A stretch of 64,000 nucleotides of DNA from Albidovulum sp. (GTDB lineage: Bacteria; Pseudomonadota; Alphaproteobacteria; Rhodobacterales; Rhodobacteraceae): contig JALSJQ010000045.1 of NCBI GenBank assembly GCA_026989275.1, forward strand, positions 62,001 through 126,000. The letters run 5' to 3'. How positions within the stretch are numbered: position 1 is the stretch's first letter; each line of letters begins with the position of its first letter. The position numbers were made by a program, and so were the translations under genes. The notes under the pieces were generated by a model that saw only the letters and a list, made by a program, of their open reading frames with translations, did not search any database and had not been told where the DNA came from. This document shows positions 20,525 to 44,283 of this stretch, piece by piece.

Positions 20525-20609
20525 GCGGGTGTGGCGGAACTGGCAGACGCAGCAGGTTTAGGTCCTGCCGCCGCAAGGCGTGGGGGTTCGAGTCCCTCCA
20601 CCCGCACCA
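20525..20609 (+). tRNA. tRNA-Leu(UAG)
   Basis: The 85-nt gene folds as a class II tRNA. The 7-bp acceptor pairs GCGGGTG with CACCCGC, followed by A and an encoded CCA. The anticodon loop is TTTAGGT between GCAGG and CCTGC, giving UAG, which reads CUN leucine codons. A long variable arm and GGTTCGAGTCC of the T arm are present. It is transcribed toward tig. Confidence 0.97.
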
Positions 20610-29435: not shown

Positions 29436-30677
29436 GGTCGTCCTCTGGAACGATTCCCAACCTGCTCCTTCTATGACCGATTTGCCGCGGCGAGGGTAGC
29501 GCAGGTGGCGGGAAAATCGCCCGGCACCGCAACAAGGGGCGGCGTCGCGCGACAGGGGAGCGGCCGCGGGATGCGCGCCCGGTCGGAGGCCCGGGCTGCC
29601 GGGGCAGGCGCATTGCCCGGAGGCCGGCGAAAGGCCGGAGCGGTCGCGAGAGGCACTCTGGAGAACCGCCGATCCGGCATGGCAGCCGCCCCGACGGCAG
29701 CATTGCCGCCGAGGAACAGTGCGCGGCCGCGCTCCGCGACCTGCCGGATCGCGGGAAATTGCGGCGGGTGGGGGCTTTCCCACGGGGCAAGAGGCAGGAC
29801 GGTGGGTGGACGGCTGGTCATGCGCCGCGCGCGGCAAGGGATGGGCGGCGTGGCGGCGCGCGATCCCCGCTCTCTCTTCCCGAGGGGCGGGTCGTCGGGG
29901 GCGGAGCCGTGGGACCTTCCTCCGGCATTGCTGATGCGCGCGGTCGGAAAGGCGGAGACGGGCCGCGCCCCGATTCGTGCCGGAAGAGTGGTGCGATCGT
30001 CGGGCAGGGGATGCCGGAGAGGGCGGCTATCCGGTTTCATATGGCAGCATGTTCAGGAAAGCGACCGCCATTGTCGCCATCGCGGCGAGGTCTGGTATCC
30101 GGTTTCGTATGGGAACATGGCACCGCGAAGAGGGGCTCCCGGGAAGAAGCGGCAACGCCCGGTGGCGAGCAGGTGCCGCATCCCCCGGCAGGCAGGGGTT
30201 TTCGACGGAAGAACGCGAAGCCGTATCGGCACGCCGGCGCGGTGGGCGCAGATCTCGAAGGCAGCGTCCTTCGAGGAAGAGTGAAGACGATGCCGTTTCA
30301 TGGCAAGGCGCGACGGGACGGTTCTTCCCCTCGAAAACAGCGAGCGGCTGCATCAGGCCGAACATTTGGCAAGGTTCAAGGAGAGCGTCTTTCCCCTCGG
30401 GGAGCGCCGCATCCGTGCTCCGGGAACGAATGGGAGGAGGTGGAGCAGGGCGCGGAAAATCCTGCATGCATGCGGTCCCGGACTCGGGATGTGCCGGGGA
30501 GAGGCGGGAAAGCGGCGGATGGCCCCGGTGGCCACAGTCGGCAATGTGGCGCGGGCGAAAGCAGCCGCATCCACCCCGCCGGCAGCCTGAAGGCACCCCC
30601 GAGGCGGCATGCCTGCCGGTCCCGCAGATCCTGGGCCCCGCCCGCCCTCACCCTCTCTGTCTGTCTCCGGGTGCTTA
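29436..30677. other. 1.24-kb gene-free region between serS and lexA
   Basis: No open frame here resembles a known family; the long frames are Arg/Gly/Pro-rich and lack ribosome sites. The region holds a 24-bp imperfect direct repeat (30028-30051 and 30096-30119). The right part (30150-30500) is slightly less GC-rich than the left. A small RNA or degraded gene cannot be excluded. Confidence 0.5.
30028..30119 (+). repeat. Imperfect 24-bp direct repeat pair
   Basis: Copies at 30028-30051 and 30096-30119 match in 21 of 24 positions and begin 68 bp apart. Each starts TATCCGGTTTC and ends CATG. Both lie in the gene-free spacer between serS and lexA. Confidence 0.7.
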
Positions 30678-36474: not shown

Positions 36475-36910
36475 GCGCGTTCCCCGGCTCGTGGCCCGTG
36501 ACGGCTGATGGCGGTTGCGCCCCCCGGCAGGGGCTGTAATCATGCCCTTAGATGGGCGATCGGGGCGGGCAGGGTCAAGGGGCGAAGCTGTAGCGCCTCC
36601 GGGGATGAGAGAGGGGGGGCGGGCGAAAGCGAGGCCGCCCCGGCACCGGCAGGGGGCGAAGGCGGGGATGCGGGCAGCCTGCGGCGCGCTCTTCCGGTCG
36701 GTGCCCCGGAATGGCCGCAGGCAGGATCGACAGGGTTGCGGGCAGGGGCAAGACGAAGATGCGGGACAGGGAACGGGAGAAGGTCGAGGTGGGGAAGCGG
36801 CGCACAGGCGGTGCAGCGGCGATGAGGGCGCAGGTTCCACCGGCAGGGGCGAGGTGGTTCCGGCCGATTTCCGCAGCCGTGCGGTGCGTCTGCCGAGGGG
36901 GGAAGGTCCG
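36475..36910. other. 436-bp spacer between divergent trpG and deacetylase gene
   Basis: Divergent promoters must lie here, but no convincing box pair or trp leader peptide with tandem Trp codons was found. Frames crossing it are Arg/Gly-rich and appear spurious. Confidence 0.4.
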
Positions 36911-38494
36911 ATGCTGCGGTTTCTGACCGGTTTTCTCCGGGGGCTGGTCGTCGCGCTCGGTGCGGCCGTGCTGATCTCGCTCTTTCTGCCGCTGCCGCCG
37001 GTGGTGGTGCGCGAGGAAGCGCCGGCGACGCTCGAGGCGCCGTTGCCGGATGCGCACCCGGCACTGCCGACCCCGCCCGGCAAAGCCGCCGGCAGCGCCC
37101 CGTCCGCGCCGCCGCCCGCCGCGCCGCCCATGCCGGCGCCGCCATCCGCTTCCGAAGGGGAAGAGGCGCCCGGTGCCGACGCGCCGCTTGCGCCGCCGAA
37201 GCCGGCGCTTCCGCCTCCGCCGCCCCCCGGCACCGCCGGGCAGGATATGCGGGCGGACCGGGAGACACCCCCACCTGCCGGCCCCGACGATCAGGGTGAC
37301 AGGGCCGGCCGGGAGAAGGTCGCGCCCCCGTCCGCACCCCCGCTTGCTCCTTCGGCCGCTTCCCCGTTCATCCCCGGGGCGACCGGGGTGGAGAAGCCGC
37401 AGATGGCCGGCATTTCGCCCGACGTGTCGGAAGCGCCGGAGAGGGCGTCCGCCCCGGCGCCGCGGGCCACCCTTCCCCCTGCGCTGGCGACGGGGGACGC
37501 CGGCAGGAAGGAGATGGTGCGTGTCGCCCCGCCCCCTCAGCCGGCTTCCCCCTCTTCCTCTGCCATTGCCCGGATGCCGGCCGCACCCGCGGCGCCCGGC
37601 GGGGAAGGGGCCGGTCCGGCGGTCGAGACCCGAAGCGCGCCGGTGCCGGATGCGGCGACGCTGCCCAGGCCGTCCGCATCGGCGCGTGACAGGGCGGATG
37701 CCCCGGTACCGGGCCGTACCGAACTCGCGGAGGAAACCGCGCCGTCCACCCCCGGCGCCGCGGCTCTGCAACCGCCCTCCTCACCGAAGGAGTCGCCTCC
37801 CGAGGCCGACCGGCCGCTGCCGCCGCCCGTCGCTCCCGAGGCGCTGCCGGCCTTCATCCGCTTCGCCCTGCCCACGAGCCCCGCAGCCGGTGCTCCGCGC
37901 ATGGCGGTCCTGATTCTCGATATCGGTCCCGAAGGCATGCCGGCGGAGGCGCTGGCGAAGCTGCCGGCCGGCATCAGCTTCGTGGTCGATCCGCGCCGGG
38001 GCGGGGCCGGGGAGCGGGCCGCCTTCTGGCGCGCTGCCGGCCACGAGGTCGCCGTGCTGGTGCCGACCAGCCTGGCGCCCTCCGCCTTTGCCGAGGAGAT
38101 CGCCGACTGGCCGGTGGTCGCCCTCGTCGATCTCGCCCGGCCCGATCCGGCCCGCAGCGAAGGTCTTGCTCGGCTGGCGACGCGCCTCGGTCTCGGCCTT
38201 GTCCTCGGCCCGGATGCGGAGCCGGGAGAGGTGCTCGCCTTTCGCGGCCGTGGTCTGCCGGCGGGGCGGATCTTCCAGATTCTCGATGACGAGGGCGAGA
38301 GCGGGCTTGCCATGCGTCGGATCCTCAACCGCTCGGCGCTCAAGGCGAAGAAGGAGGGCGGGGTGATTCTCGCTGCCCATTCGCTGGCCCCGAGCATCGC
38401 GGCCGTTCGCAAGTGGCTGGAAACGCTCTCGGCCCGGCAGGTGCAGCTGGCGCCGCTCACGAGCGCGCTTCTCGATGCCGCAGGCGGGAAGTAG
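36911..38494 (+). CDS. Divergent polysaccharide deacetylase family protein with long Pro-rich linker
   Basis: The 527-residue protein has an N-terminal membrane anchor ([23 protein letters not shown]), then about 285 residues of Pro/Ala/Ser-rich low complexity (roughly 35-320), and a C-terminal domain from about 331 (MAVLILDIG...). That domain resembles the divergent polysaccharide deacetylase family of Rhodobacteraceae, with [29 protein letters not shown] and [33 protein letters not shown]. The Asp and His metal ligands of true deacetylases are not all evident, so catalytic activity is doubtful. It probably lies in the periplasm, tethered to the inner membrane and spanning toward the wall. 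GGAAGG precedes the ATG at 36911. Confidence 0.75.
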
Positions 38495-39603: not shown

Positions 39604-40560
39604 TTATGGAGCGCCTTGCGCGGCGGCAATCCCGCTTTGCCGCTCGCTGCAGATGGCACCGGCGATCTCGGCGGCAAGCCGCGCATTGTCGAGCACCAGT
39701 GCCCGGTTGGCGTGCAGTGACCGGCCGGCGCTCAGCTCGGCGATGCGCCCGAGGAGGAAGGGCGTGACGGCCTTGCCGGCGATGCCCCTCTTCCGGGCTT
39801 CGGCCGCGGCGATCCATTCCTCGACGAGCGCGCGCGGCAGGGCCACCGCTTCCGGGATCGGGTTGGCGACGAGCTGCCCGCCGCCGATGCCGAGCGCCTG
39901 CCGGCAGAGATGGGATCGGGCGATTTCGGCCACCGTGTCCATGCGGATCGGCACGGAGAGCCCCGAATCGCGGCACCAGAAAGCCGGAAAGGTATCGGTC
40001 CGCCAGCCGATCACCGTCACCCCCGCGGTTTCGAGCACCTCGAGGGTCTTCGGCAGGTCGAGAATCGCCTTGGCGCCGGCGGCGACGACGGTGACGGCGG
40101 TGCGCCCGAGCTCGACGAGATCGGCCGAGATGTCGAAATCCGTCTCGGCGCCGCGATGGACCCCGCCGATGCCGCCGGTGGCGAAGACGTCGATCCCGGC
40201 CAGGCGGGCGAGGATCATGGTGGCGGCAACGGTGGTCGCCCCGTTCCGGCCGCAGGCGAGGGCGGGGGCGAGGTCGGCCCGCGAGAGCTTGGCGACGGCA
40301 CCGGTCGGCGCGCGTGCGAGATGGGCGAGCGCGGATTCGTCGAGTCCGATGCGGATGCGCCCGCCGAGAACGGCGATCGTGGCCGGCACCGCCCCGGCCT
40401 TGCGCACCTCCGCCTCGATCGCGCGGGCGATGGCCAGATTGTCGGGCCAAGGCAGGCCGTGGCTGATGATGGTGCTCTCGAGGGCGACGACGGGCCGGTT
40501 GTCGGCCAAGGCCGCCGCCACCTCGGAAGCGATGTCGAGCGGCAGGGGAATCGGGTTCAC
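39604..40560 (-). CDS. psuG: Pseudouridine-5'-phosphate glycosidase
   Basis: PsuG splits pseudouridine 5'-phosphate into uracil and ribose 5-phosphate by breaking a C-C glycosidic bond. The 318-residue product aligns by eye with the family throughout: NRPVVALESTIISHGLPWPDNL near residue 22-44, AVPATIAVLGGRIRIGLD near 58, KLSRADLAPAL near 90, the metal-site and catalytic region TVAATMILARLAGIDVFATGGIGGVHRGAE near 108-137, and NPIPE near 230. The start is GTG at 40560 (VNPIPLPLDIA), because no in-frame ATG lies near the conserved N-terminus. The kinase gene psuK lies 528 bp upstream on the same strand. Confidence 0.95.
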   Translation of the reverse strand: MNPIPLPLDIASEVAAALADNRPVVALESTIISHGLPWPDNLAIARAIEAEVRKAGAVPATIAVLGGRIRIGLDESALAHLARAPTGAVAKLSRADLAPALACGRNGATTVAATMILARLAGIDVFATGGIGGVHRGAETDFDISADLVELGRTAVTVVAAGAKAILDLPKTLEVLETAGVTVIGWRTDTFPAFWCRDSGLSVPIRMDTVAEIARSHLCRQALGIGGGQLVANPIPEAVALPRALVEEWIAAAEARKRGIAGKAVTPFLLGRIAELSAGRSLHANRALVLDNARLAAEIAGAICSERQSGIAAAQGAP

Positions 40561-41088
40561 GTCAACGCTTTCTTCATTTTCGGGACCGATGATGGTGATG
40601 GGCGAATCGGGCGCCCGCGTCAACGCACCCCTTGATGTGAATGGCAGACATGAAAATGGGGGCAGGGAAAGAGCGTCGGGTGACGGGGACGGAACGGAAG
40701 GGCGGAAACGCGGCGTCGTCGCGGTGATGGGAAAGCGGCCCGGGCGCACCGAAGAGAGCGGATGATCCTGGCGGTGCGGGCCGGGCAGGCGCAGGGCGGC
40801 TCCCGTCGCGGGATGCGACAGGGGAAAGAGCCGGGGCTGCCTCGGCCGTATCCGGGGGCTGCATCCGTGTTTCGACGTGCGGCGTGCGTCACCCCATGCG
40901 TCACCCGTCGTGCGACCGAACCTGCGCAGGTTCCGGACGTTGGGGGAGAGTTGACCGCCCGGCCCCGGCATCCGGGGAGGACGCGCGCATCGCCGGGAGT
41001 GCGGGTGTGCCCCACTGGATCATCGGGAATGGCCGGATCGAGAGGCCGCCTTTCTGGGAGGGCAGTGTGACAGTGCGACGTGTCGTCG
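40561..41088. other. 528-bp gap between psuK and psuG
   Basis: No gene is supported. In other bacteria these two genes are usually close or overlapping, so the gap is unusual. Its composition looks like the low-complexity inserts inside psuK. No terminator with T run was found. Confidence 0.4.
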
Positions 41089-43644
41089 TCAGGCAGGTGC
41101 ATCCTCCGGCCCGGTGGCGTGCCCGGCGACATGGGCGGCGGCGGCCTCGCAGGCCGCCCGCAGGGCGTGTGCGCGAAGTGCCCGCGACGGCAGGGCGCTG
41201 CCGGAGAGCGCCCTGTCGCGGGAAAGGGGCGCCGCTTCGTCGCTCGGGGCGGGGCGGGCGGCTTCCGGGTTCGGCATCCGTGCCCGGCATGCGTGCGACC
41301 GGTGCACGGGCCCTGCCTCCGGCGATCCGGTGGCCCGCGGAGCGCCGGGCGACAGGCTCTTGAAGGACGGGGGCGTCTCGGGCGAGGGTGTCTCTGCGTC
41401 TTTGGCAAGCGCCGTTTCCGGACGCAGCGACGGCGAGCCTTCGGCTGCCGCATCCGGCGGCTCTGGGGGGCGCTGCGATGGGGCTCGGTGCTTCGTGGCG
41501 GCAGCCGTCGGGAGCCTGGGCGAAGGCTGGTTGCGGAAGAAGGGGCCGGGATGCGACTCCGATGGCCCCGGAGACATGGAGGCCGGAGACATGGAAGAAG
41601 GCTCCGCGAATGGTGCACGCCTGCATGTATCGATCGCCGGTTCCGCGTATGAAGAAGAGGGATTCCTCCGTGCCGGGCCCTTGTGGGCGACCGATGTCGT
41701 GGCGGGCACGCAAGGCGGATGCCCGGCGGGGTCCGCGTCCTCGTGACGCGCCGGCGCCCCTGCCGGCGCGGAAGAGGGGCTTTCGTTGTCCTTGTTCGAT
41801 GTCGCGGGCACCGGCGGGAACGTCACCACGGGTCCGTGGTCGCTTCCCGGGGCCGAGGGGGGAGTGCTGAGGGCTTCGCCCACGGGCAGATGGGCGCTGG
41901 CGTTTTCCGGGACAGCCGTCGCGGAACGCTCCTTCCCTCCGCCGGGAAGGGGCCCCTCCGGCACGCCACCGCCGCTCTTCGTCGATGCAGGGATCCGGCC
42001 GTCGCCAGTCGGGCTGCTCCGGGGCCGGGTGCTGTTGTTGTCGTCCGCGACTTCTCGGTTCCGGTTCCGATGCAGCGTCTGTCGGAAACAACCGGCGCCT
42101 GCCACGGTGGGGAGAGGTGCGGAAAGGCGCGCCGGTAGAGGATCGTCACATGCCCGTTCCGGAAAGGGGGCGGAAGCGGCCGCGATCTCCGCCGCGACAT
42201 GGGCGGCGATGAAGCAGTCGCCCGCGCCGGTCACCTGCCGCGGGGTGATCCGGGGCGGGGTGACCGTGAGCGGCATCGCCTCCCCGGTGGCGAGATCGGC
42301 CACCGTCGCCGGTCCGTCGGTGACGATGGCGCGCGCAAGGCCGCACGCGACGAGCGCCCGGGCTGCCGCAGCCGCATCGGCCAGGCGTCGCCCCAGAAGG
42401 ATCTCGGCTTCGTGACGGTTGAGATAGATCGTCGGACCTGTCGTCATCGGTCCGCGTGTCGCGCTGCTTTCCGTTTCCGCCTTGCCGGTCGGTGCGGAGC
42501 CGGCTCCGGGTGCAGCGGATGCGGGGCCCGGGCTCGAGATGTCAGGGGCCGGCCCCTCCTTCGCCGCCGCGATGTCCGCCGAGGACGGGGGATCGTCGGG
42601 AGGGGCAGGTGGCGTGCCGGAGGGAGCACAGAGGGGGCGGGGCTCCGGTGCCGACCGGAGCGGGAACGCGGAGGTGGTGCCCGGACTGCCGCTTGACATG
42701 TCTTGCGTCAGGGGGGTGCTGTCGGGCGCTCCCGCTTCTGCCGACGACGGATGCGCCGGGGCGCTTCGGGTCGCGGTCGCATGCCTCTCGGCCGTTCTCC
42801 TGGCGCACGGGACCGGGGCCGGATCATCCTGCCCGGGCCATGTCCGTTCGCGTCTCTGGTCACCTTGTGCCGATGATGGGGCTGCATCTTCGCGGCCGGC
42901 TGCCGGTGGTTGGCGGGCGGGGGCTCTCCCGTTCGCGGAGGGGTGCCCTTCGGCCGCCGTCTCGTCGATGCGGGACGGACCGGGGGAGCGGTTCGGGCCG
43001 GAGTGTCCGGCGAGGAAGGGGGCGAGACGGTCGACCTTGCCCGGCGAGGCCGGCACGAGGCGCAGATCGCACCACGGGGCGAGGCGGCCACGGGCGAGGC
43101 GTGCCAGCACCGGGGCGGGCAGGTTGCCGTCGACGAGGACGATCACCCGCCCGTCCGGGCCGGGGGCGAGGGGCGGGGTCTCGGCGAAGAGCGGGGCGAC
43201 GAGTGCCGCCCCCGCCGCCTCGAGAGTCGCCGCGTCGGCAATCGCGGCCACCAGTCGCCCGGCCGCCTCGATCGCCATGTAGCGGTCGGCGCGACGGCCC
43301 GGCAGACGCAGGGCGAGGCGGGTATCGACCCCGGCCGCGACCAGGCGCATCTCGAGCACCCGGCTTTCCTCGTCGTCCCCGAAGGCGGTGCGCAGCGCCG
43401 GACGCAAGCCGCGTGCGGCCAGCGCAATGGCGATGTTGGCCGCCACCCCGCCCGGCCGCATGACGACCCGCCCCGGCACGTCGGGCGCCGCATCCAGCCT
43501 CTCGTCGGTGGTGCCGATCACGTCCCACATGGCCGAACCGATACAAAGAACCGGCGGTGCCGGCGCCGTCCTCGCCCTGGTATCTTCCGACCGGGTGTCT
43601 TCCGGGACGGATCGCACCGCTTCGCTTTTCCCTTGGCCGTTCAT
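41089..43644 (-). CDS. psuK: PfkB-family (pseudouridine) kinase interrupted by two low-complexity inserts
   Basis: PsuK phosphorylates pseudouridine to give the substrate of PsuG. The uninterrupted frame is 851 codons; PfkB kinases normally have 300-340. Residues 1-213 give the N-terminal half ([36 protein letters not shown] at 64-80), 403-490 continue the fold ([14 protein letters not shown], then [15 protein letters not shown]-type end with GAGD at 473-476 and catalytic Asp476), and 818-851 match the last helix. Between them, residues 214-402 and 491-817 are Pro/Ser/Ala-rich and unlike any domain. Without both, about 335 residues remain. Sampled insert codons are less GC-biased at position 3 (28 of 37) than core codons (26 of 29). 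GGAGAATGC precedes the ATG at 43644. The assignment to PsuK rests on the psuG neighbour. Confidence 0.8.
41194..42174 (-). other. In-frame low-complexity insert 2 of psuK
   Basis: About 327 codons between the GAGD helix and the C-terminal helix of the kinase. It is rich in Pro, Ser, Ala and charged residues without tandem periodicity, has no stop codon, and shows no intein or domain motif. Confidence 0.65.
42439..43005 (-). other. In-frame low-complexity insert 1 of psuK
   Basis: About 189 codons between the strand [21 protein letters not shown] and [14 protein letters not shown]. In ordinary PfkB kinases these elements are joined directly (the kinase continues from a VSPGK-like turn to a N-x-x-E loop). 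Confidence 0.65.
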
Positions 43645-44283
43645 GCATTCTCCGGACACGCTGCGGGCGAATCCGCCCCTTCCCGCCCCGAGCATCGCCC
43701 GCCGTCCCTGCCGGGGCAAGTCTGCCGGTTTCCGCCACCCGCATGCCGCCTTGGCCGGGGGCGGCGGGGAGAGGGCGGCGTCCGGGAGCCCGGCCGGGCC
43801 AGCGCGAGCGCGGAATGCACGCCGGGTTTTCTCCGCGCACCGGGGATTGCGGTCACGATCGGCGGTCTTTTCTCGCCGCTCCCGACCTGCTCGGCCCCGA
43901 CTTGCGCGGCAACGGGTGCTGCAACGCCCCGTTCTCCTCGCGGGCCATGTCCCGGCCACGCGGGAAAGCTCTCCCGTCGCGCCCGGGCCGATCACCGAAG
44001 GGGGGGTGTCTCATGCAAGGGATCACCCGTTTTCCTCGCGTTCGGGTCGGTCCTGCCATCGGCCGCTCCAGCTACTTCCCGCCCCGTTCTCCCCGCACGC
44101 GCGGGTCGATCCGGTGTCCATCGGTCGCGAGGGGCGAGACGCGCCCCGTCGCGCCGGCCCTGTGCGGAAGGGGAGATGCGGTTGACAAGGGCGGCGGGGC
44201 CGCTAAAAGGCACGCCTGAATTGCTGCGCCCGATCGTCCGACCGACGGCCGGTGCGCCGGACGAGCGACGCCAGGAGAGCGAC
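43645..44283. other. 639-bp spacer between psuK and rpmG
   Basis: Divergent spacer without a recognisable gene apart from the rpmG promoter at 44182-44209. No psuK promoter was identified with confidence. Confidence 0.4.
44182..44209 (+). promoter_or_regulatory. rpmG promoter
   Basis: TTGACA and TAAAAG are separated by 16 bp, about 75 bp before the rpmG ATG. The -35 box is a perfect match. Confidence 0.7.

Follow-up and report, generated by a model that had tools for sequence, protein, structure and literature searches.

A kinase gene of Albidovulum sp. (Rhodobacteraceae) was found to encode a PsuK-like member of the PfkB family whose fold is interrupted by two large, in-frame inserts rich in proline, serine and alanine, as a preliminary description of this DNA had rightly proposed. 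The two inserts together are longer than the kinase domain. As judged from sequence, this lineage-restricted pair of inserts is real, and the loops that they form are probably translated and disordered within a kinase that is probably active. The explanation that we favour, and consider fairly likely, is that an active PsuK-like kinase tolerates two lineage-specific disordered loops which grew from little-constrained DNA. The kinase would be made whole, as one protein of 851 residues with a normally folded core, and two of its loops would have been expanded in this genus by DNA resembling the local non-coding spacers. One of these is the turn that leads from a helix into the NxxE strand, and the other connects the GAGD helix to the last helix. 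The inserts would hang out from the core as soluble, proline/serine/alanine-rich disordered loops with no specific function of their own. Selection would maintain the open frame and a hydrophilic, arginine-poor composition of the inserts while hardly constraining their actual sequence, which seems to change faster than the silent sites of neighbouring genes.

Organization of the gene and its neighbourhood

The gene is located on contig JALSJQ010000045.1 of assembly GCA_026989275.1. The stretch analysed, referred to as the window, covers positions 62,001-126,000 of the forward strand (64,000 nt), and all positions below are counted within it. The features discussed are as follows.

41089-43644, minus strand: psuK-like PfkB kinase gene with two in-frame inserts (851 codons and a stop)
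43650-43653, minus strand: likely Shine-Dalgarno sequence GGAG, five bases before the ATG at 43644; presumed ribosome site
42997-43566, minus strand: kinase core N, residues 27-216; substrate-binding part with D41, N70, Y122, N174, S200 and K203
42439-42996, minus strand: insert 1, about residues 217-402 (borders good to a few codons); rich in P, A and S, predicted as coil, not present in the relatives examined
42154-42438, minus strand: kinase core M, residues 403-497; NxxE strand (N409, E412) and GAGD helix (D476)
41173-42153, minus strand: insert 2, about residues 498-824; rich in P, A and S, predicted as coil; the congener G001 shows the end of an insert at this site (L035:2-226)
41107-41172, minus strand: last helix of the kinase (region of 22 protein letters, not shown); conserved in G001
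40624-41088, no strand assigned: psuK-psuG spacer; no periodicity; unalignable with the longer spacer of G001 (about 0.9 kb)
39604-40560, minus strand: psuG, pseudouridine-5'-phosphate glycosidase (Indigoidine_A family; Pfam PF04227, E=6.4e-120); start codon uncertain

The single open frame of 851 codons noticed in the preliminary description, which gave no strand, was confirmed on the minus strand, where it reads from 43644 to 41089 with no internal stop. Upstream the frame stays open to 43995, from a GTG, and the ATG at 43644 is the preferred start with its GGAG upstream at a distance of five bases. The kinase gene is followed downstream, also on the minus strand, by psuG, whose product is the partner of PsuK in E. 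coli according to PMC9247573. In this genome rpmG is also a neighbour of psuK.

Kinase core and substrate-binding residues

The PfkB fold is split by the inserts into three pieces, formed by residues 27-216, residues 403-497 and the last helix. Pfam PF00294 (PfkB) matches the product in two stretches (E=1.3e-21; 77.7 bits against a gathering cut-off of 25.8). The PfkB landmarks occur in the order described before, with GGVAANIA at residues 65-72, DGN at 172-174, YLNRHEAE at 407-414 and GAGD at 473-476. The GAGD residues as well as N409 and E412 were each observed to be identical in all 37 of the relatives' loci; we take GAGD to be the catalytic motif and NxxE a strand motif of the PfkB family.

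A profile built from 15 relatives found E. coli PsuK (EcPsuK) as its best match in the PDB (E=4e-30). Twelve EcPsuK residues that touch pseudouridine are named, with their roles, in PMC9247573, and nine of these are retained here when counted onto the alignments. Residues D16, G41, V42, N45 and Y97 of EcPsuK correspond to D41, G66, V67, N70 and Y122, and N143, S167, K170 and D256 correspond to N174, S200, K203 and D476. Each of the nine was found to be identical in 37/37 relatives' loci. The three changed contacts are N14, M114 and V166 of EcPsuK, which are replaced by M39, A138 and A199. The Arabidopsis kinase AtPUKI also replaces N14 and M114 (by Ile and Val), and according to PMC9247573 these changes have no effect. 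The same source describes S30 of EcPsuK and T26 of AtPUKI, in the nucleoside-binding loop, as important for pseudouridine recognition. This position is occupied here by D55 (43480-43482) and by Asp in 37 of 37 relatives' loci, and nucleoside recognition may therefore differ in the whole family. In addition, the NCBIfam pseudouridine kinase equivalog NF007355 scored 45.9 of 540 bits and its cut-off was missed. We therefore use the label PsuK-like only and do not claim membership of PsuK. Since D55 and the NCBIfam score speak against a firm PsuK label, it is psuG and the other contact residues that suggest pseudouridine as the likely substrate.

Near-invariant columns of the core were retained at 54 of 61 positions, and two of the seven losses fall in the misaligned last helix. 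As the key residues and most of these columns are in place, decay does not offer the best explanation of the gene, even though its core evolves fast.

Position of the inserts in the fold

In the AlphaFold model, insert 1 is located between a predicted helix (201-211) and a predicted strand (405-409), and insert 2 between two predicted helices (474-488 and 821-842). Residues 212-404 and 489-820 are predicted as coil, and the last helix returns at 821-842. The model was computed with three sequences in the alignment and has a mean pLDDT of 38.1, and it was used for the order of secondary structure only. Counted on the alignment, the insert sites correspond to about I181/H182 and D268-M270 of EcPsuK. 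The preliminary description had placed inserts of 189 and 327 codons at fold junctions; this agrees with the positions and with the lengths of about 190 and 330 codons observed here. Loops of this kind lie away from the active site in this fold, and the same would be expected of both inserts.

Coding character of the inserts

The G+C content at third codon positions was 0.88 and 0.83 in the two core regions and 0.75 and 0.76 in the inserts. The lower value previously estimated from sampled insert codons thus holds over the whole regions, and together with it the suggestion of a different origin or relaxed selection is judged to be right. By codon position the G+C content is nearly flat in the inserts (0.70/0.77/0.75 in insert 1 and 0.70/0.69/0.76 in insert 2) as compared with 0.82/0.58/0.88 in core N. 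Most insert blocks also score below zero in codon usage, and are in this respect similar to non-coding DNA.

Dinucleotide shuffling gives a probability of 0.02 that the 513 codons of the inserts contain no stop. With the stop frequency of the spacers of this window the value is 0.013, and with that of the five other frames of the inserts (14 stops in 2561 codons) it is 0.06. At the overall G+C of the inserts, which is 72-74%, the absence of stops is only suggestive of coding. The 3-base periodicity of the inserts was reached by 0 and 1 of 2000 shuffles respectively, whereas that of the psuK-psuG spacer was reached by 1855 of 2000. Three other spacers (221-261 bp), taken unshuffled, have a raw periodicity equal to or higher than that of the inserts.

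The amino acid composition of eight insert chunks of 60 codons, with borders set by us, was compared with that of 246 spacer chunks, each translated in every frame. As read in the kinase frame, the inserts contain fewer hydrophobic residues (0.09 against 0.17, p=6e-4), more proline, serine, threonine and alanine (0.54 against 0.37, p=3e-5) and less arginine (0.08 against 0.17, p=1e-4), and glycine and Cys/Trp are also scarcer than in the spacer chunks. Furthermore, the sum of proline, serine and threonine is highest in the kinase frame among the six frames of insert 1, insert 2 and the piece from G001. The periodicity and the kinase-frame composition, the latter measured on eight chunks only, point to translation and to selection for soluble disorder. 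The possibility that a gene is hidden in a different frame was considered and rejected, as the best segments of the other frames score 8-14 against 53.6 for core N.

Relatives without inserts

A search of 121 genomes gave matches in 72. In all 37 relatives' loci examined (35 genomes, two of them occurring twice) the kinase has 292-305 amino acids and neither insert. In the family genomes with both parts, a match to about residues 27-214 is followed within about 20 bases, as read by eye, by a match to residues 403-490; in G023 the two kinase matches overlap, with a stop. A second draw of family genomes gave a match in at least 138 of 149. Relatives with the kinase split or frameshifted and the region non-coding had been named beforehand as evidence against such inserts; the relatives examined were found to be intact and insert-free. 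In 35 of the 37 loci less than or at most 120 bp separate the stop of psuK from the start of the psuG match. The exceptions are L021, where the distance is 903 bp, and L024, where no psuG was found in the stretch examined. The corresponding gap is about 0.5 kb here and about 0.9 kb in G001.

The frequency of such insertions was examined in 0.39 Mb of this genome (about 15%) and 0.4 Mb of the relative G059. Frame pairs below 60 bits or 30% identity were left out, giving 173 reciprocal-best pairs out of 209, of which 77 remain after overlapping, mostly antisense, frames are dropped. Insert 1 of psuK was the only insertion of at least 40 residues on either side of the 173 pairs. Insert 2 escaped this test owing to the shortness of the last helix, which gives no match, and other near-terminal inserts could escape it too. 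Spacers were observed to be longer here than in G059 in 26 of 37 conserved neighbour pairs (median +56 bp), a set that includes the psuK-psuG pair itself with insert 2. At one place (L070, 4874-6225) conserved neighbours are 1352 bp apart here and 154 bp apart in G059.

Comparison with the congener G001

G001 was the only genome of the same genus in the 121-genome search. Its contig C155 begins inside an insert at the site of insert 2 (L035 1-330 is the start region of the contig), from where 75 codons rich in proline, alanine and arginine run in frame into the conserved last helix and are followed by the stop. The last helix aligns with G001 over a stretch of 73 bases with 82% match. For insert 2 the local alignment score was 56 against a shuffled mean of 43.8, and 13 of 300 shuffles were as good. 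The psuK-psuG spacer gave no alignment with G001. Four neighbouring genes have a dS of 0.21-0.31 between the two genomes, with an identity of 0.79-0.80 at 4-fold sites and a protein identity of 83-96%. At a dS of only 0.21-0.31, unconstrained DNA that changes by substitution alone should still align. The comparison, of one species pair and one truncated gene, thus suggests that both insert 2 and the spacer between psuK and psuG change more rapidly than silent sites, probably by insertions and deletions, with the caveat that silent sites may themselves be constrained at high G+C. A general hypervariability of spacers, suspected at first, became less likely, as 14 of 20 spacers of at least 60 bp align with G001 over at least half of their length; the psuK-psuG spacer is among the six that fail to align.

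The rest of psuK was searched for in G001 with the N-terminal 215 residues at E up to 10, and the search found only another kinase, a 646-residue frame that we read as IolC-like. The rpmG gene was likewise not found in G001, while it was found in the three other genomes compared. As rpmG is missing too, the G001 assembly probably has a gap at this place. As the contig of G001 starts inside insert 2, the comparison covers the end of that insert and the last helix, and not insert 1.

Search for repeats and mobile elements

No further copies of the insert DNA were found in the genome itself at E≤0.001, as judged from the scores of 15 out of 100 and 11 out of 97 initial candidates, and no repeat pair was found to frame either insert. 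Shared words across the borders of the inserts have lengths of 6 and 7 nt, which is also what shuffled sequences give. A mobile element, a target-site duplication and tandem slippage were all rejected as sources, since the inserts have no second copy, no framing repeats and no tandem array inside them. The sole tandem row in the kinase gene (43072-43106) is located in the core. The further copies and terminal inverted repeats typical of RPE- or MITE-type elements were not observed. No intein domain was detected in the inserts, and the product matches only PfkB in Pfam at E≤0.001. At gathering thresholds Rfam gave no match on the kinase gene, and its only match in the window was a tRNA at 20525.

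A perfect inverted repeat of 17 nt (41954-41970 and 42608-42624) has its arms in insert 2 and insert 1, respectively, with the middle core between them. A shared word of 17 nt between the inserts occurred in 2 of 1000 shuffled pairs. Perfect inverted pairs of at least 16 nt within 3 kb number two in the window, eight in 330 kb of this genome and six in 400 kb of G059, and the 17-nt pair, being at genome background, is probably due to chance. An invertible switch was rejected because repeat pairs are at background and the inverted state reaches a stop at codon 494. The predicted fold of the mRNA from 42700 to 41900 is better than that of 20 shuffles (z -2.87) and pairs the 17-nt arms. Such a stem would enclose the middle core and thus does not fit with removal of the inserts.

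Evolutionary rate and alternative explanations

Trees of psuK and psuG were built from 35 sequences, with two genomes represented twice and after exclusion of three loci that lack a long psuG match. The terminal psuK branch of this genome is the longest of its tree (0.84 against a median of 0.26), and the psuG branch of the same genome is the third longest (0.363 against a median of 0.171). The ratio of psuK to psuG distance is 1.96, which is third of 35, and the median of the relatives' pairs is 1.45. The higher ratios belong to L032 and L041, both of which are insert-free. Among the insert-free relatives, the most divergent ones show changes in 7 to 10 of 65 to 69 near-invariant columns. The long psuK branch is compatible with relaxed selection, and we would read the pattern as faster evolution rather than loss.

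The main alternative is strongly relaxed selection on the kinase, or an early stage of its decay, so that inserts accumulated while the enzyme was unneeded and the high G+C content kept stops rare. This agrees with the longest psuK branch of 35, the third-highest psuK/psuG ratio, the probabilities of 0.013-0.06 for the absence of stops and a psuK-psuG spacer that is also longer than in most relatives. The nine retained substrate residues, the 54 of 61 intact columns and the last helix conserved with G001 argue against it, as do the composition and periodicity of the inserts at the protein level, which are absent from the adjoining spacer, and the fact that L032 and L041 exceed the ratio without inserts. 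We therefore regard relaxed selection or decay, the latter offered as one alternative in the preliminary description, as rather unlikely. The inserts may instead have been selected as disordered regions with a role of their own, for example in binding a partner, forming condensates or regulating the kinase, which would explain why they are in frame in two species, as far as can be seen, and have a non-random composition. This appears still less likely, as there is almost no sequence conservation between congeners whose proteins are 83-96% identical (four genes) and no Pfam family is found in the inserts.

The other alternative raised in the preliminary description, removal of the inserts from RNA or protein (by an intron, an intein-like element or bypass), would yield a kinase of normal length and has likewise lost weight. 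Neither Rfam (at gathering thresholds) nor Pfam matches anything on the gene except PfkB, no repeats frame the inserts, the border words of 6 and 7 nt resemble those of shuffles, and both inserts are open in frame with a protein-level composition that an RNA to be removed would not need. We consider removal very improbable. An assembly artefact that fused unrelated DNA into the gene is given the same very small chance. The sequence comes from a single assembly, and the contig of G001 itself breaks inside insert 2; yet the three core pieces stay in one frame across both inserts, no second match to the insert DNA was found in this genome, and G001, a separate assembly, has the end of insert 2 in frame. 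Tolerance by an active kinase of two loops grown from little-constrained DNA thus remains the preferred reading. A further-reaching version of it, which we put forward only tentatively and think more doubtful than probable, is that the loops are a nursery of new coding sequence, where non-coding-like DNA is captured in frame, translated, screened only for an open frame and for solubility, and altered more rapidly than silent sites. If this is true, an enzyme has gained, within one genus, more new protein than its own domain holds.

Comparison with known systems

EcPsuK (PDB 7vkp and 7vsk; PMC9247573) is the best PDB match of the profile of relatives and is similar to the present kinase in nine of twelve contact residues and in the presence of an adjacent psuG. 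It differs in having 313 residues, with no inserts at these loops, and in S30, which is D55 here. As compared with EcPsuK, the pseudouridine kinase PUKI of Arabidopsis (PDB 7c1y) contains two insertions, of which one is long and disordered (PMC9247573). These add only 65 residues in total according to that account and are located elsewhere, in the alpha8-alpha9 loop and at beta12-beta13, and T26 of AtPUKI is Asp here. The Rickettsia palindromic elements are also DNA inserted in frame into coding genes of bacteria, and the proteins are predicted to accommodate them in fold and function (PMC10969869). They form families of elements of about 150 bp found in many genes. The present inserts, unlike these, are longer, have no second copy and no framing inverted repeats, and occur in one gene of the sample. 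No published parallel for disordered or low-complexity inserts in PfkB enzymes, or in proteobacterial enzymes or high-GC bacterial proteins, was found in the open-licence literature; the disordered insertion of AtPUKI and the Rickettsia elements, as described in these sources, are the nearest precedents.

If the protein is whole and active, it would be a natural test of how much disordered, little-constrained sequence a small bacterial enzyme can tolerate. It would also be a case, restricted to a single genus, in which DNA similar to non-coding sequence has come to be translated through insertion rather than as a new gene. This would be of interest to students of new protein sequence, without being revolutionary.

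Other regions of the window

Two further regions of the window were noticed in the comparison with the congener. Positions 29436-30677 form a stretch of 1.2 kb in which no strongly coding frame was found, and at which the congener has about 0.45 kb of unalignable sequence. A divergent polysaccharide deacetylase with long P/A/S-rich linkers is encoded at 36515-38494; parts of its linkers are unalignable with the congener and its C-terminal part aligns.
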